Source of the DNA: Candidatus Hydrogenedentes bacterium CG07_land_8_20_14_0_80_42_17
Lineage (GTDB): Bacteria; UBA8481
Assembly: GCA_002780065.1 (NCBI GenBank)
Contig: PEWQ01000098.1
Location: 231 to 7,457 of the forward strand
DNA: 7,227 nucleotides
Direction of reading: 5' to 3'
Shown: piece after piece, positions 2 through 7,095 of the stretch
How positions within the stretch are numbered: the first letter of the stretch is position 1
Layout of the letters: every line of letters begins with the position of its first letter
Notes under the pieces: model-generated
Databases searched by the model: none
The model's input: only the letters and a program-made list of their open reading frames with translations
Told to the model about the DNA's origin: nothing
Position numbers and translations under genes: made by a program

Positions 2-1798
2 ATTAAAGGTGAGCCATCAGATACACTTGAAGAATTTTTTATCTATCTTGACGTTTCTTCAGGGCTAGATTCAATTTATGTCACTAGTATGAATCTATAT
101 CGTGATATAGACAAAGACGGTTCATGGACACCTGGCGACCAGTTTGTGGCAAATCTACAATGGCAACCAATGTTTGGGATATTTGGCAATCAATCAGTCA
201 ATCTGCCTTTACCATCCGGAGAAGACTCATTCATCATAATAATGAAGGGTGCGGACACAACTCCGCTCGGCGAGACATTCCAAGCTGTTATACCTGATCA
301 TAGTATCAAAACCTCTCTGCGCGATTACGGTCCCTCGACATTAATGTATGCTCCAACTCTATTCCAGACAGAGATTCCACCGGGCGGCTATCCGACAGAC
401 GTTTATGTATCTGTAGCTCAACCTGTAAGCGGAACCATTTATCCTGCAGGCATAGACCAGACCTCTGTAATGGCTCTTTCAATTGGAGGAGACAACAGCG
501 GCGACACATTAACAAAGTTTTACGTAAACTTAATCGGTTCGGCAGCACAACTGAATAGAATCGAAAATGTGACATTGTATTATGATCTCGATGAAAACGA
601 ACTCTTCAATCCGGCAATTGACGCAAGCGCCGCTCCACTTCCGAGCATTGGCGGCGGCATTTATGGCTCCAATTTACTTTCAGTAGAGTTACCAGACTGG
701 AGGCTCGGAGCAGACTCATTCCTCGTCATTGTAGAACTCTTCGACACTGCTCCTGCAGGTGAAACTTTGCAAGCTCTAATTTCTCCAACCCAAGTTAAGA
801 CCCAACTCAGAGATTCTGCTCCTTCTTCAGCGCTCTATTCACCGGCAACATTCTCAGTTGCATCTACTCCAACTTATCTCTATGTCGATCCTTTGAGGCC
901 TGCCGGCTCAGCAATCAATCCTGCCGGAGCTGACATCACTTCAGTAATGTCGATGACAATTGGCGGAGCTCCAAGCGACACTCTAATATTGTTCCAGGTA
1001 AACTTTGAAGGAAATGCCGGAGTCGGCATACAGATCGAGACTGCGGCGTTATACAGAGACATAGACAAGAACGGAAATTATTCAGCCGGCACGGACATTC
1101 TGGAAAACAATCTTTCGGTTTCAGGAAATATTGCAATGCTTACCGGCAACGTCAGTCTGCCTTCGAGCGACTCCTTCATCATTGCAGTTTCGTTCAGAGA
1201 CACAGTTACGGGCGGCGACACTCTGCGAGCATTTATACCTGCCTATTCAGTACAAACTTCAATGAGAGATGTTACTCCAACATATAACATCTATGCTCCA
1301 GCTGAATTCATAACGGAGTCAGGTGTAGCAACTGCCGCAAGAGTTTATGTAAGTCCGAACACAGTTTCAGAAACTATATCGCCTCTCAATGTTGATTTGA
1401 CACGTATTATGGCATTCACTATTTCAGGTGCCTCTAACGACACTTTGACGGAATTTACAGTCAATTTGAACGGTCTTGCAGGTCAAGTATCGAAGTTGGA
1501 CTACATAGTCATATACAGAGATGCAAACAATAACAGCAACTTCGATTCAGGAGTCGACCCGATCGTTTCTTTGCTTGGGTGGATGAGCGGACAGACCTAC
1601 GGAATGACAGGAATTAATTACGATCTCGGTCCGACAGGAACAGAGAGTTTCATACTTGTTCTTTCATACAAAGATTCATCACCGAGCGGCGAGACTGTTC
1701 AGGCAATGATACCTGCTCTAGGAGTTAAAACTTCTTTGTTGAGTTACGGGCCGGCCATCAACATGTCTGCTCCGGCCGCATTCACAATATACGATCTC
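2..1798 (+). repeat. Four tandem ~155-residue N-terminal domains with calcium-loop-like segments
   Basis: Four protein-level repeats begin at about base 2 (first unit lacking its start), 401, 875 and 1343, with complete units of 158, 156 and 152 codons. Each runs: a 'VYVSP' strand; 'I.P.G.D.tsvMa.tI.G...DTL..F.VNL'; 'lYRD' running into an acidic loop; 'DSFII.v...D..p.GeT.qA.IP'; then 'vkTslrd..P....yaPa.F'. The acidic loops are DIDKDGSWTPGD (104-139), DLDENELFNPAID (584-622), DIDKNGNYSAGTD (1058-1096) and DANNNSNFDSGVD (1520-1558). The first fits the 12-residue D-x-D-x-D-G EF-hand/dockerin loop exactly; the others are looser. The units have diverged in DNA, so this is old duplication. I do not recognise a named family. 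The pattern suggests a calcium-stabilised beta-sandwich stalk module. Confidence 0.85.
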
Positions 1799-4700
1799 AC
1801 TCCGCCGTCTGCATTCACACTTATATCACCGGCAAACAACACTGACACAAATCTTTCATCGATCAGCCTGCGCTGGAACGCAAGCTCTGATGCAGGAAGC
1901 GGATTGTCGAATTACCGAATTCAAGTTTCAACCTCGCCGACATTCTCTTCATTCCTAATTAATGCTTCCACCGGTCTGACTCGAAGTTATTCATTCGCTC
2001 CGCCATCGGACAACACATACTATTGGCGAGCTGTTGCGTATGATGTGAACGGAAACTATCGCATCTCGACTGACACTCGCACACTCAGAAGCGACAGAAC
2101 TGCTCCAACAAAATCTGTTTTGAGTTCACCGACAGCAAATCACGAAACTTCAGTTCCGACCATCACATTCACCTATTCAGCCTCGAGCGATACATTTACA
2201 GGCATCAAGCAATATCGACTGCAAGTATCCGACAACCCAACATTCTCCACGATTCTTTCGGACTCGCCAAATGGAACCGCACTCACTGCAATTAAGAATC
2301 TCGGTTCAGGAGCTGTTTACTACTGGCGAATACTTGCCGAAGACAACGCCGGCAATACAACAGCTTCAGATACACGCAAACTAACAATAATCGGTTCCGG
2401 TCCAACTGCTCCAGCGCTTATCGAACCGGCCAATGGATTCGAGACTTCATCAGCCACTCTTAATTTCCAGTGGGGTGCGTCAACCGACACTCTATCGAGC
2501 ATAACAAACTATCAGCTTCAGATTGCAAACGATGCGTCATTCTCATCTCTGGTTGTCAACGCTCCAATGGGCATTGCGTATTCATCTCAACGCACTCTTT
2601 CTGCGGGACAGGTTTACTACTGGCGAGTGAATGTGACAAACTCCGCCGGGTTCTCGACAAACTCTGCAACAAACTTCCTTGCAATCGACAACGTCTGCAC
2701 GGTCTCGCTCTTCTCGCCGCCTGACGGAGTGACTACTGATGACACAACACCGCTCTTCGTATGGCAGAGCGACGGTGATTCATATACATTGCAAGTCGGA
2801 ACTGATACGACAGGTGCAGCACTTGTGCTCAACGAAAATTACAATATAAATACGTATCAAGTTGAGACAGGAATAAGTGCAGGTACATACTATTGGCGCG
2901 TCATTGCTCTTGATAATGCTCGCAACATTGATACCTCATCGTGGAGAAGTTTGACTATAGATACCGGAGGCGCAATCAGCGACAGCACACCGCCAGAGCC
3001 TTTTGCGCTCATTTCTCCGGAACATGCAACTTGCACCGGCGTATTGGCTATAACTTTCAAATGGGCTTTGACCACCGACACTTCGACCGGTGTGGCGTCA
3101 TACACAATACAGATCGATCCTGACAGCACTTTCTCGAGTCCGATCTATGACTCTTCAGTCTCATCTGCTATTGATACATTCACGGCTCAATTGCCGGCAA
3201 ACGAAATACTTTATTGGAGAGTAATCGCAACGGATGCCGCAAGCAACACAAGAATATCTCAGACAACAAGAGCGATCATCACTGATACTCTTGCTCCGTC
3301 AACAGTCACAGCTTTATCGCCAGTCAACGGAGTCGAAACATCTGCGTCGACTATAACATTCGAATATACCTCTTCTTCAGACACAAACGGAATTGATCAC
3401 TATGAAGCTGAAGCTGACACTTCCGGCGCATTCACAGCTCCTATACTCACCGGAACATCCGCAGGAACTTCAATTACTCTAATCGGCTTTACACAAGACA
3501 CATGGTATTGGAGAGTTGCGGCAGTTGATATTGCGGGCAACTATTCGACATGGTCAACAGATACATTCCATGTCACTCGAACCGCTCCGAGCGTGCCAAC
3601 TTTGATTTCACCAATAAACGGAGCATATGAAACTTCGACAACAGTCGCGCTCGATTGGTCTGATGCAGTGCCTGCCGGCTCTGCAGTGAGAAGATACAAA
3701 TTCAGAGTCAGCACCGATTCTTCGTTCGCTTCTTCGCTTTATAACAGTGTCACATCAGATACGACCAGTTCGACAAACATCTCCGGGCTTTGGGGAGGAA
3801 GTTGGTATTGGCAAATAGCTTCTGAAGACTTGCTCGGCAACATCTCCGACTGGTCAAGCACAAACAACTTTACAGTAGACACATCAAACATTCCGACACC
3901 TGCCGTTACCGCTCCAACTAATAATGCAGTGACTCGCATTAATGCAATGACAATTGCATGGAACGTTTCAGGAACCATGCCGACTAGCGGACTTGCCGGA
4001 TACGATCTGCAAATCATCAATGCGGCGTCTGTGTTGATGCTCGACACTTCTTTTGCATCCAGCGCTCAAATCTATTCAATAGCACTTTCCGGATTCAGCG
4101 AAACCACTTATTCTGTTCGCGTCAGAGCAAGATCAAACGCCGGAGCAATCGGCGCTTGGAGCAGTTCTGTAAACTTTGCATTCGACTTTACTCCGCCGAA
4201 TGGAGTTCCGACGCTTGTCTCTCCAATCAGCGGAACAGAGACAAGTGTGACTGCAGTTTCATTCGAAGTCACTTCAGTTTCCGATACCGGGCCGGGCGGA
4301 ACAAATGTCTATTACATATTCCAAACCTCCAGAAGTTCGACATTCGATACTTCTACAATACTTTCGACTCAACGAATGGGAGCGACAAAGTTTACACCAA
4401 CATGGCTCTTCAACGACTCTGGAGCTTATTGGTGGCGAGTTGCCGCGATGGATACTGTAGGAAATATAGGTTCGTTCTCAAATCCGGATAGTTTCACTCG
4501 GCCGATTCCAATTGATACTGTGCCTCCTGTTCCGATTGCAAAGCTGTCACCCACTGCAGACGATCTGCTCGGAGTAACTCTGATTTGGGAAGGTTCTCCA
4601 TCAACCGATATGACCAGCGGCGGCCAATATAATATCTACTGGAACGAAGGAATAACCGGAGCTATGCCTGACACAATCTTCAAGATTGTTCCGAACATTG

Positions 4701-6124
4701 GAACAGAAAGTTATATCTATTCGACTCTCGTTGATACAACACTTAGAAATGGCGTATATTATCGTTTCAAAGTTAAAGCTCAAGATCGAGTTGGAAACGA
4801 AGAGGATAATAATTCTGTTGTAGGAGCTACTGCACGGCTTGGCGCATCAAATTATCCGTGGATCGAAATAATTACTCCGCATGCAGAGCACACTGTAAAT
4901 ATGACAGGCGGAGTTCAAGTGCAGGCTAGAATTAGAGGAAGTTACAGAAGTATATGCGATACATTAATTCTACAGTTCAGGAATATTCAATCATCAGCTT
5001 GGAGCACAATGACTCCGGTATCAAGCAACTGGTCAAATCCGAATTATGTCGGAGGAGAATCAAAGACCGTATATGGAATTCATTGGGACGCGGCAGGAGA
5101 CGGAGGTCAATCAGATAGTAATTATGAATTGCGAGGGATTGCAGTCATCAATACCGGCGATTCCAATCCAAGTCTATCTGAAGTCATACAGATTACTTTG
5201 ACGACCAACAGTGGTGATGCAGATATTAATTCAGGAACCGATTCAACTGAGCAGAGAGGCTATTCAGGTCAGAGAAATAGTGTCAATCATGAATCCGGCG
5301 AAGATACAAAGGGCGGAGTAGAATTTGCCGCTGGAGCAACAGGTGAAAATGGTGAAGACACAATTACAGTCTCTGTCGGAATTGAAACAACAGCCGGGAG
5401 AGGAGCTCACGGTCAAAGCGTAAGCGGATTGGGCGCAAGCGGATTAGCAGTAAGCGCAATTGACAACCTCATCGGTTCAGACACACCTTTGGGAATCGGG
5501 CTGACAATAGAGATTAGAAACAAGAGCGGACAAGTAATTACAGCTCTTATACAGGACGCATTGATCTCCATGAGCTACAGGATGGATACTTCATACAGTC
5601 TTGACAGTCTTGTGATTCGAGCTTTACATGCGAATGGAGATACACAGGAATGGAGTTACGATTCTGTGACAAATCTTCCGTCACTAACTGCTTTTGCTTA
5701 CGACACAATAGAGCGGCTCATCACCTTCAAGACGAGAAAATTCTCTTCGTTTGTTTTGGTAGCGCCTGCACTCGGTTCCGGCGGGCCTGGCAATCAAGTT
5801 AATCTTGCAAAGTTCATGGTCTATCCAAATCCATACAGACCGAACGATGGTAATGCATCGACAGGACAGCCTTACGATCCGGCAAATCCGCGAACTACCG
5901 GAATCATCTTCGACAATCTACCTGCACAGGTTAGAGTCGAGGTTTACACAATGCGCGGCGAGCGAGTATTCGAGCGAACAATGACAGTAAATGACGGCTA
6001 TCTAACATGGAATGCAAAGAATTCAGCAAACGGAGATGATGTTGCAAGCGGTTATTACATCTACATTGTCACCGACCTAGCAACAGGCCGGAGAGTCACA
6101 GGTAAGTTGGCGGTGATAAGATGA
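2..6124 (+). CDS. Giant secreted multidomain repeat protein with type IX-like C-terminal sorting domain (5' partial)
   Basis: The frame is open from base 2 to the TGA at 6122-6124, giving 2040 visible residues with no start inside the window. The codons before the ATG at 89 read IKGEPSDTLEEFFIYL and match the start of the later repeats (IGGAPSDTL, ISGASNDTL), so that ATG is internal. Numbering from base 2, the layout is: four ~155-residue repeats (1-599), ten Fn3-like repeats (600-1613), an Ig-like domain (1620-1738), a linker plus ZU5-like domain (1739-1937) and a sorting domain (1938-2040). Ser, Thr, Asn, Asp and aromatic residues are abundant and only three Cys are visible, as in long extracellular beta-sandwich proteins. 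No catalytic motif is seen. The inferred role is a surface stalk, adhesin or S-layer-like protein exported by a type IX-like route. The PorV-like gene follows with a 4-base overlap. That the gene is coding is certain; the function is inferred from architecture only. Confidence 0.93.
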   Translation: MKGEPSDTLEEFFIYLDVSSGLDSIYVTSMNLYRDIDKDGSWTPGDQFVANLQWQPMFGIFGNQSVNLPLPSGEDSFIIIMKGADTTPLGETFQAVIPDHSIKTSLRDYGPSTLMYAPTLFQTEIPPGGYPTDVYVSVAQPVSGTIYPAGIDQTSVMALSIGGDNSGDTLTKFYVNLIGSAAQLNRIENVTLYYDLDENELFNPAIDASAAPLPSIGGGIYGSNLLSVELPDWRLGADSFLVIVELFDTAPAGETLQALISPTQVKTQLRDSAPSSALYSPATFSVASTPTYLYVDPLRPAGSAINPAGADITSVMSMTIGGAPSDTLILFQVNFEGNAGVGIQIETAALYRDIDKNGNYSAGTDILENNLSVSGNIAMLTGNVSLPSSDSFIIAVSFRDTVTGGDTLRAFIPAYSVQTSMRDVTPTYNIYAPAEFITESGVATAARVYVSPNTVSETISPLNVDLTRIMAFTISGASNDTLTEFTVNLNGLAGQVSKLDYIVIYRDANNNSNFDSGVDPIVSLLGWMSGQTYGMTGINYDLGPTGTESFILVLSYKDSSPSGETVQAMIPALGVKTSLLSYGPAINMSAPAAFTIYDLTPPSAFTLISPANNTDTNLSSISLRWNASSDAGSGLSNYRIQVSTSPTFSSFLINASTGLTRSYSFAPPSDNTYYWRAVAYDVNGNYRISTDTRTLRSDRTAPTKSVLSSPTANHETSVPTITFTYSASSDTFTGIKQYRLQVSDNPTFSTILSDSPNGTALTAIKNLGSGAVYYWRILAEDNAGNTTASDTRKLTIIGSGPTAPALIEPANGFETSSATLNFQWGASTDTLSSITNYQLQIANDASFSSLVVNAPMGIAYSSQRTLSAGQVYYWRVNVTNSAGFSTNSATNFLAIDNVCTVSLFSPPDGVTTDDTTPLFVWQSDGDSYTLQVGTDTTGAALVLNENYNINTYQVETGISAGTYYWRVIALDNARNIDTSSWRSLTIDTGGAISDSTPPEPFALISPEHATCTGVLAITFKWALTTDTSTGVASYTIQIDPDSTFSSPIYDSSVSSAIDTFTAQLPANEILYWRVIATDAASNTRISQTTRAIITDTLAPSTVTALSPVNGVETSASTITFEYTSSSDTNGIDHYEAEADTSGAFTAPILTGTSAGTSITLIGFTQDTWYWRVAAVDIAGNYSTWSTDTFHVTRTAPSVPTLISPINGAYETSTTVALDWSDAVPAGSAVRRYKFRVSTDSSFASSLYNSVTSDTTSSTNISGLWGGSWYWQIASEDLLGNISDWSSTNNFTVDTSNIPTPAVTAPTNNAVTRINAMTIAWNVSGTMPTSGLAGYDLQIINAASVLMLDTSFASSAQIYSIALSGFSETTYSVRVRARSNAGAIGAWSSSVNFAFDFTPPNGVPTLVSPISGTETSVTAVSFEVTSVSDTGPGGTNVYYIFQTSRSSTFDTSTILSTQRMGATKFTPTWLFNDSGAYWWRVAAMDTVGNIGSFSNPDSFTRPIPIDTVPPVPIAKLSPTADDLLGVTLIWEGSPSTDMTSGGQYNIYWNEGITGAMPDTIFKIVPNIGTESYIYSTLVDTTLRNGVYYRFKVKAQDRVGNEEDNNSVVGATARLGASNYPWIEIITPHAEHTVNMTGGVQVQARIRGSYRSICDTLILQFRNIQSSAWSTMTPVSSNWSNPNYVGGESKTVYGIHWDAAGDGGQSDSNYELRGIAVINTGDSNPSLSEVIQITLTTNSGDADINSGTDSTEQRGYSGQRNSVNHESGEDTKGGVEFAAGATGENGEDTITVSVGIETTAGRGAHGQSVSGLGASGLAVSAIDNLIGSDTPLGIGLTIEIRNKSGQVITALIQDALISMSYRMDTSYSLDSLVIRALHANGDTQEWSYDSVTNLPSLTAFAYDTIERLITFKTRKFSSFVLVAPALGSGGPGNQVNLAKFMVYPNPYRPNDGNASTGQPYDPANPRTTGIIFDNLPAQVRVEVYTMRGERVFERTMTVNDGYLTWNAKNSANGDDVASGYYIYIVTDLATGRRVTGKLAVIR
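1799..4840 (+). repeat. Array of ten fibronectin type III-like domains with 'YYWRV' signature
   Basis: Ten consecutive units of 95-110 codons start at 1799, 2102, 2408, 2693, 2990, 3293, 3584, 3890, 4193 and 4523. A typical unit runs 'APS.p.LisP.nG.ETs...i.F.W..ssDt.sgi..Y.lQvs.d..Fss', then a loop, then 'YYWRV.A.D.aGN', then a closing strand. The Y-x-L/I-Q-V and YYWRV strands match the C and F strands of the Fn3 fold as known from bacterial extracellular proteins. Units 1-7 and 9 keep the aromatic pair followed by R or Q. Unit 8 reads YSVRVRARS and unit 10 reads YYRFKVKAQD, so these are the most diverged. Unit 4 lacks the 'ssDt' insertion and is short before its Q-V strand. Likely a rigid or elastic stalk; sugar or protein binding by some units cannot be excluded. 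Confidence 0.85.
4859..5215 (+). other. Single Ig-like beta-sandwich domain after the Fn3-like array
   Basis: About 119 residues start at WIEIITP and end at ITLTTNSG. They lack the YYWRV strand and the 'LISP.nG' opening of the preceding repeats. The visible pattern is 'I.I.tP....v...ggv.vqA.i', then a Trp-rich middle (SSAWSTM, SNWSNPNY), then 'YELRGIAV', ending in a strand. This resembles bacterial Ig-like domains of the kind that open with 'V.it.P..g..v.g.v.v.A'. The family assignment is by pattern only. Confidence 0.5.
5216..5812 (+). other. Gly/Ser-rich linker followed by ZU5-like domain
   Basis: Roughly the first 40 residues are polar and low in complexity (Gly, Ser, Glu, Asp, Asn). Then come GGVEFAAGATGENGEDTITV, 'PLGIGLTIEI', 'ALISMSYRMD', 'LDSLVIRALHANGD' and 'FKTRKFSSFVLVAP'. 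This order (a 'gg.v..paGa....tITv' opening, a middle strand, a 'l.v...dg...W' segment and a closing 'FSSFvL' strand) is what I know from ZU5-like domains that sit just before C-terminal sorting domains in large bacterial surface proteins. A second Gly/Ser-rich patch (GQSVSGLGASGLAVSA) interrupts the domain. The assignment is inference from pattern; the domain probably rigidifies the C-terminal base of the protein. Confidence 0.5.
5813..6121 (+). other. C-terminal type IX secretion-like sorting domain
   Basis: The last 103 residues begin FMVYPNPYRPND and continue 'TGIIFDNLP..v.VEVYTMRGERVFE', 'GYLTWNAKNSANGDDVASGYYIYIVTD', ending 'GRRVTGKLAVIR'. The YPNPY opening, the 'v.vyt..Ge.v' strand, the 'W.a.n..G..vasGyYiY' strand and a basic end are the marks of the type A sorting domain family (Por secretion tail / FlgD-Ig-like). 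In Bacteroidota such domains direct export through the type IX system and are then cleaved by PorU and replaced by a lipopolysaccharide anchor. Here the same role is inferred, strengthened by the PorV-family gene directly downstream. Confidence 0.75.
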
Positions 6125-6183
6125 GAATGATGAATGATGAATGCAGAATGATGAAATACGTGAATTGTAATTCGTGGTGCGTG
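6121..6183 (+). repeat. Low-complexity repeat-like segment at the gene junction
   Basis: This 63-base stretch between the end of the giant gene and the likely start of the PorV-like gene is built from iterated ATGA/GAATGATGAA words. The 11-mer agaatgatgaa occurs at 6124-6134 and again at 6145-6155, and tgaatgatgaatg lies between. It is followed by a Gly/Thr-codon-free run of GTG/CGTG words (attcgtggtgcgtgatgcgtg, spanning into the next gene). Translated, it gives a Met/Asn-rich peptide (MRMMNDECRMMK) unlike any n-region expected for an exported barrel. It may be an intergenic repeat element that happens to be open in frame. Confidence 0.4.
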
Positions 6184-7095
6184 ATGCGTGTTTTACAAAT
6201 AGTTTTTGCAATTTTTATTAGTTTATCCTTTATCGTTCCTGTTTATTCTGCGCAGGACAATGCAGGTTCAAACTCAGGCATTTCGCTTCGATTTTCTCCG
6301 TCAGTGCGCGCCGCCGCAATGGGTGATGCGTTTACTGCAGAGGCTCGAGGAGTTTCTGCGGCATATTACAATCCTGCAGGTCTCGGTTGGACTGAACAGA
6401 AAGAATTGTTGCTCTCTTATCAAAACCTTGTGCTCGATGTTGGGCAAGGCTCACTCGGTTATGCTCACCCGTTAAGCAACAAAAGCGCATGGGCAATTTT
6501 GGGGCAATATGTAAATTACGGTTCAACTCAGAGAACCATAGTATCAGGCACTGCTGGAGCGTATTCAGGCACTTTCTCAGGGCAAGATATTGCGGTTGGA
6601 ATTTCATACGGAGCTAAGATGGGAAACTGGGGATACGGCGTCACAGCAAAGATACTCTCTTCTGAGATTGATAATACTTCTGCAACAGCTTTTGCAGGAG
6701 ACATAGGTTTACGATGGCAAGCAGATAATTCACCATTAGCTTTTGGAATCGCCGTAAATAATCTTGGCACAGAACTCAAATACGATCGTGAAGCGGAACG
6801 ATTACCAATTCTTTTCCGAGCCGGCGCAAGTTGGGAAGCAATTCATAAGAGACTAATTATCACAGGTGATTTAGAAAAGGTTGTAGATGAGAACTGGAGC
6901 GGACATGCTGGAGCAGAATTCAAACTTGGAGATATGTTTGCGTTTAGAGCAGGTTACGACGGCAGTGTCGAGATCGACAATGGATTAACGCTCGGTGCAG
7001 GATTTAAAACAAATGGGCTTGAATTAGATTACGCTTTTATTCCATTCGGTAAAGTTGGAGACAATCACAGAGTTGGATTAAATTATAAATTCTAA
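6121..7095 (+). CDS. PorV/PorQ (UPF0164)-family outer-membrane beta-barrel protein
   Basis: The frame gives 324 residues from the ATG at 6121, or 303 from the ATG at 6184. After the signal peptide comes the family hallmark 'ISLRFSPSVRAAAMGDAFTA' and AAYYNPAGL (residues 54-88), the turn-rich N-terminal part typical of FadL-like barrels of the PorV/PorQ group. The rest alternates Gly/aromatic-rich beta strands and ends in a terminal Phe (RVGLNYKF), as outer-membrane barrels do. Length fits the family (roughly 300-400). PorV of Bacteroidota shuttles sorting-domain cargo from the type IX translocon to PorU; PorQ is a related component. The 4-base overlap with the upstream cargo-like gene suggests one operon. 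No convincing Shine-Dalgarno sequence precedes either start. I favour 6184 as the true start, because it opens a normal signal peptide and the preceding 21 codons look like low-complexity DNA; 6121 is given as the outer limit. PorV versus PorQ cannot be decided here. Confidence 0.85.
   Translation: MRMMNDECRMMKYVNCNSWCVMRVLQIVFAIFISLSFIVPVYSAQDNAGSNSGISLRFSPSVRAAAMGDAFTAEARGVSAAYYNPAGLGWTEQKELLLSYQNLVLDVGQGSLGYAHPLSNKSAWAILGQYVNYGSTQRTIVSGTAGAYSGTFSGQDIAVGISYGAKMGNWGYGVTAKILSSEIDNTSATAFAGDIGLRWQADNSPLAFGIAVNNLGTELKYDREAERLPILFRAGASWEAIHKRLIITGDLEKVVDENWSGHAGAEFKLGDMFAFRAGYDGSVEIDNGLTLGAGFKTNGLELDYAFIPFGKVGDNHRVGLNYKF
6184..6252 (+). other. Sec signal peptide of the PorV-like protein
   Basis: From the ATG at 6184 the protein reads MRVLQIVFAIFISLSFIVP then VYSA and mature QDNAGS. 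This is a short basic n-region (one Arg), about 15 hydrophobic residues and a small-residue cleavage region. The cut is likely after Ala at 6250-6252, or one residue earlier (V-Y-S). There is no lipobox Cys. It fits export to the outer membrane. Confidence 0.75.

Follow-up and report, generated by a model that had tools for sequence, protein, structure and literature searches.

The window analysed here, a stretch of 7,227 nucleotides, is part of a 7457-base contig (C202) of Candidatus Hydrogenedentes bacterium CG07_land_8_20_14_0_80_42_17, whose assembly comprises 2.39 Mb in 207 contigs and is 87% complete. Among the genomes compared, a single further one belongs to the same order and the next ones are related at domain level only, so the lineage appears isolated, and the source organism, which has flagellar genes (C102), probably represents an undersampled phylum-level lineage. 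The same-order relative (G023, 94% complete) was taken as identical to genome J006 (G001), since the matches fall at the same contig positions.

Two genes are encoded on the forward strand of the window: the 3' part of a giant cargo gene (2-6124; 2040 aa), recognised by its Pfam modules and its sorting-domain tail, and a gene for an outer-membrane barrel of the PorV/PorQ family (6121-7095), which is proposed as the cognate carrier and anchor of the cargo. Outside the pair, the end of the contig (window 7100-7227) holds a 46-bp unit repeated 2.8 times in tandem with 100% matches, which includes the palindrome GGGCGAAC...GTTCGCCC.

Sorting domain and barrel

The cargo frame fills nearly all of the window and is open at the 5' side, also at the contig start; the N-terminus is therefore missing and the full cargo exceeds 2117 aa. 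Repeats of ~145 aa, delimited by eye, cover roughly the first 600 aa, and residues 601-1379 consist of Fn3/Ig-like modules (Pfam Ig_Rha78A_N, fn3 and Big_13), followed by a C-terminal sorting domain (CTD; 5786-6121, forward strand) reading ...YPNPYRPNDG...VASGYYIYIV...TGKLAVIR*. The YPNPY...KLAVIR tail had been read as a sorting domain from the letters alone, and the type A model TIGR04183, the match to PorZ and the predicted fold agree with that assignment. The tail alone matched TIGR04183 with E 3.6e-4, just under the curated cut-off, and its best match was the CTD of PorZ (6.8e-8). TIGR04183 recognised 16 of 16 CTD tails of the genome at E<=0.01, as compared with one of 16 for the type B model TIGR04131 and 12 of 16 for Pfam CHU_C; a profile built on the same 16 CTDs matched, in the PDB, PorZ (5m11, 1.5e-9) and PorU. 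Modelled with AF2 (pLDDT 95), the tail resembles the PorZ CTD and the translocon-bound NucA CTD. A lysine near the C-terminus (codon 6104-6106) is nearly invariant, the column in relatives holding Lys in 43/51 and Arg in 7/51 sequences. The window cargo thus ends in a type A-like type IX sorting domain. A FlgD-like domain was considered instead and rejected: FlgD Ig gave weak matches, equalled or surpassed by the CTDs of PorZ, NucA and PorU, and the domain always stands at the end of the protein.

The downstream product scored 181.7 bits with the PorV/PorQ family model NF033709 (cut-off 90). It is an equivalog neither of PorV (NF033710, 82.4 bits, 250 required) nor of PorQ (NF033711, 135.6 bits, 220 required), scoring higher with the PorQ than with the PorV model, and a Pfam search gave no PorP_SprF match. 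Its AF2 model (pLDDT 90) has PorV of F. johnsoniae (8gl6_F, TM 0.72) as top fold match. The sequence-only reading, a PorV/PorQ-type barrel overlapping the cargo by ATGA at 6121-6124, was right about the barrel; the overlap of cargo stop and barrel start is possible, with ATG at 6121, and the signal peptide is also consistent with an alternative start at 6184. In five paralogous pairs of the genome (C117, C33, C149, C169 and C3) the overlapping ATG leads straight into a normal signal peptide.

TodX and FadL are the next fold matches after PorV. Together with the pairing of the barrel with a surface protein, this FadL likeness might point to a FadL-like importer to which the CTD protein serves as lid or receptor, in the manner of SusD on SusC, with SprA secreting the cargo without the barrel. 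Such an arrangement is considered very improbable: PorV itself is the best match in both sequence and fold, and it is the CTD that identifies the partner, the passenger parts varying widely in length.

Recurrence and co-divergence of cargo-barrel pairs

Fourteen PorV-family genes are present in the genome of the window, and CTD matches, located independently, number 17, two of them within one gene (C63). Ten of the 14 barrels directly follow a CTD gene, which has a hypergeometric probability of ~3e-20, assuming ~2200 genes; nine of these pairs may share an in-frame 4-bp overlap (NTGA), and in the tenth (C3:3211) the barrel lies 2-8 bases downstream. An eleventh barrel, on C145, is separated from a CTD gene by one other gene. 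Overlaps of 4 bp were counted in 26 of 77 adjacent same-strand ORF pairs on the same contigs, leaving a background of 17/68 once the nine cargo-barrel pairs are taken out. Barrels of this genome are ~23-43% identical to that of the window. On contig C3, one cargo-barrel pair follows another in tandem (L039:1-7423), and two adjacent barrels occur in the relative too (L165).

The same arrangement was found far beyond this genome. Among the 80 loci nearest the window barrel, a set biased towards that barrel, 54 of 82 evaluable barrels are preceded by a CTD ORF at a distance of up to 400 nt. When the better-scoring barrels of whole genomes were counted, pairing with a CTD gene was found for 12/15 barrels in J006 (a related lineage, deposited as Hydrogenedentota), 10/12 in Lindowbacteria, 13/18 in Elusimicrobia GWF2_62_30 and 5/7 in Gemmatimonadetes J002, the last with no overlaps; many loci of Aerophobetes and Desantisbacteria are arranged alike. 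Several of these lineages carry 14-32 divergent barrels per genome. The pairs have a direction: only 4/68 barrels are immediately followed by a CTD gene. In a Latescibacterota genome it is the gene of PorU itself that precedes a PorV gene. Genes for giant surface proteins placed directly before a barrel gene of their own occur here and in no fewer than five further lineages of phylum rank outside Bacteroidota. Recurrence of cargo-PorV pairs, put forward as a test of the sequence-only reading, was confirmed within the same genome and in several phyla outside Bacteroidota, and that reading was refuted neither by this test nor by the search for a translocon gene. Cargo followed by barrel is the normal arrangement in these genomes, and the window is no single odd locus.

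Distances between CTDs and distances between barrels are correlated within genomes, with a pooled r of 0.55, while shuffling the partners inside each genome gave 0.12+-0.07 (p 2e-4); the single-genome p values are 0.015, 0.0006, 0.0014 and 0.02 after one near-identical duplicate was removed; in Gemmatimonadetes (5 pairs) the correlation was not significant. Five of the ten pairs here have one and the same pair of the relative as their nearest, whether judged by CTD or by barrel (p 0.001). This co-divergence shows that partners are not swapped between pairs, and is no proof of binding, because linked genes share their history. The pairs could even persist only through joint duplication, with no functional link, given that linkage alone yields correlated trees and that one Elusimicrobia genome does contain a near-identical duplicated pair. 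This is the least probable of the explanations weighed, having only a slight chance of being correct: order is fixed and spacing very close among strongly diverged pairs of several phyla, and CTD genes are rarely found downstream of barrels. Natural CTD-barrel fusions were also sought as evidence of contact; the only candidates, L087 and L107, each show a weak CTD-like match internally, after the barrel, and were unconvincing.

Exceptions to pairing occur on both sides. CTD genes on C81, C196 and C36 have no neighbouring barrel, and probably also that on C65, where the remaining 295 bases of the contig hold none, while that on C43 is assigned to neither group; conversely, the barrels on C204, C186 and C26 have no neighbouring CTD gene. 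Since orphan CTD genes and orphan barrels coexist, some sharing of carriers must occur in this genome. A common pool, as in ordinary type A systems, with any barrel carrying any CTD and adjacency only balancing expression, would accommodate these orphans. It would also agree with the plastic pocket by which PorV of F. johnsoniae accepts many CTDs (PMC10994853), and with the crosstalk known even between SprF pairs (PMC12618676). However, such a pool would hardly call for about one barrel per cargo, for the sets of divergent barrels in several lineages, or for partners that co-diverge, and it is judged unlikely.

Translocon, sortase and motor

A search of the genome for SprA, suggested by the sequence-only reading, led to a SprA-type ORF of 2103 aa on contig C34, matching TIGR04189 with E 1.7e-38 and 131.6 bits, under the curated cut-off of 200. 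It had no Pfam match and a single-sequence search of the PDB returned none, whereas a profile of ten SprA-like proteins retrieved SprA of F. johnsoniae (6h3i_A, E 1.4e-46). The protein aligns with all other large ORFs (sixteen compared) over ~830-2070 residues, and strong SprA matches were found in 16 of the 22 other genomes of a panel picked for carrying PorV-family genes. As judged from sequence, most carriers possess a full-length but divergent SprA translocon, and so does this genome, where the gene lies away from the pair. The pair had been imagined as self-contained, which it is not, because the SprA that it needs is encoded on another contig. In many genomes, including that of the window, the sprA-like gene lies beside genes for an lptF/lptG-type LPS-export permease (PF03739) and/or comF-type genes (L047:1379-3603; L218, L221-L223, L229-L232), and a conserved linkage of the translocon gene to LPS export is possible.

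PorU, likewise sought in the genome, gave a different result. No Peptidase_C25/PorU domain was detected in the genome of the window (G000, 87% complete), in its nearest relative J006 (G001), in Lindowbacteria, in two Elusimicrobia or in others. The C25 domain search was used instead of NF033707 because the last ~100 positions of that model are a CTD and mislead as to PorU. The same search was positive in Gemmatimonadetes, Latescibacterota, Poribacteria and Desantisbacteria (G003, G006, G016 and G017), and is thus able to detect C25. For the motor, the GldM and GldN profiles gave no match and that of GldL one marginal match, in searches of 20-23 genomes run with no Bacteroidota positive control.

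Proposed cognate carriers and anchors at a shared pore

Type IX secretion has been described as specific to Bacteroidota or to the FCB group (PMC4793230, PMC7463736, PMC11205867), and surveys have reported it only in Bacteroidota (PMC4793230) or FCB bacteria (PMC11205867). A study of Poribacteria reported sorting domains for which it found no secretion machinery, leaving their pathway unsettled (PMC3909097). In F. johnsoniae, the CTD inside SprA binds the loops of PorV and exits through the lateral gate together with PorV (PMC10994853). The type B cargos of the same organism have cognate SprF-like carriers that also serve as anchors (PMC12618676, PMC9143113), nine of 12 having a neighbouring shuttle and the three orphans sharing one orphan shuttle (PMC12618676), and PorQ of P. 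gingivalis anchors PorZ (PMC5562754).

The combination of a type A-like CTD, a PorV/PorQ-type barrel, about one barrel per cargo and no detected sortase leads us to propose that, at a SprA pore common to all pairs, every cargo is carried by its cognate barrel and then stays permanently anchored to it; we assign this a probability of about two in three. After export by Sec, the giant cargo would be presented within the SprA-like pore encoded on C34 with its CTD leading. The barrel from the next gene would dock at the lateral gate of SprA, bind the CTD and depart with it. The CTD would be retained on the cargo and the barrel would persist as a non-covalent, permanent anchor, like PorQ for PorZ and SprF for SprB, because no PorU sortase was found here or in the 94%-complete relative. 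Each major cargo would have its own barrel, and the overlap of stop and start codons would hold their production in balance. Homology, gene order, recurrence and co-divergence are established here, whereas the binding, its specificity for the cargo, secretion, lasting anchorage and the energy source are all predictions of this model. The arrangement suggests a type IX-like system with a dedicated carrier and anchor per cargo, as opposed to one shared carrier, and the early suggestion of a dedicated partner or anchor remains the best-supported reading, CTD-barrel binding itself being predicted.

A cargo gene beside that of its own carrier is not unprecedented, as sprB-sprF type pairs (PMC12618676, PMC9143113) and the porU-porV genes of Latescibacterota illustrate. 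For the PorV/type A form, searches of an open-access library, with most subscription journals outside its scope, turned up no account of such pairs in these phyla, nor any paper linking PorV to Elusimicrobia or SprA to Gemmatimonadota. In SprB-SprF type pairs (F. johnsoniae; PG1035-PorP in P. gingivalis) the carrier gene also lies directly downstream of the CTD cargo gene, pairs are cognate, the carrier serves as surface anchor, as it would here, and orphans exist on both sides (PMC12618676, PMC9143113). They differ in joining a type B CTD to a PorP/SprF-like shuttle, whereas here a PorZ/PorU-like type A CTD meets a PorV/PorQ barrel, outside Bacteroidota and with 4-bp gene overlaps common. In the PorQ-PorZ and PorU-PorV couples of the P. 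gingivalis attachment complex, a PorV-family barrel holds one particular CTD protein at the surface (PMC5562754), as is proposed here, but these form one common sortase complex, unlike the many cargos found here, each with a barrel and with no PorU detected. The SprA-PorV translocon of F. johnsoniae has homologues here of SprA, PorV and the CTD; there, however, one PorV serves many type A cargos, whereas here SprA is very divergent and the GldL/M/N profiles, used with no positive control, gave no convincing match. On the proposed reading, the scheme is that of SprF for SprB, drawn from the PorV/type A branch.

A divergent SprA, with one PorV-type carrier for each cargo, would be a definite secretion path for sorting-domain proteins in a number of uncultured phyla. 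The gene pairs predict which surface protein belongs to which barrel, which aids surface annotation of bacteria that resist culture, and the origin of the two carrier classes becomes testable. More tentatively, and with the odds against it, a sortase-less type IX branch may span six or more lineages of phylum rank, most of them outside Fibrobacterota-Chlorobiota-Bacteroidota, in which every major cargo has a PorV-type carrier as permanent anchor and the motor is not GldL/GldM; on that view, Bacteroidota would retain leftovers of pairing in their shared PorV and in PorU-PorV and PorQ-PorZ.

An extra C-terminal domain is carried by PorV-family proteins of C169, C117, C204, C33 and C3 (L032, L033, L034, L036 and L039), with TPR in that of C117. 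These domains are presumably periplasmic and might tie the anchor to the cell wall.
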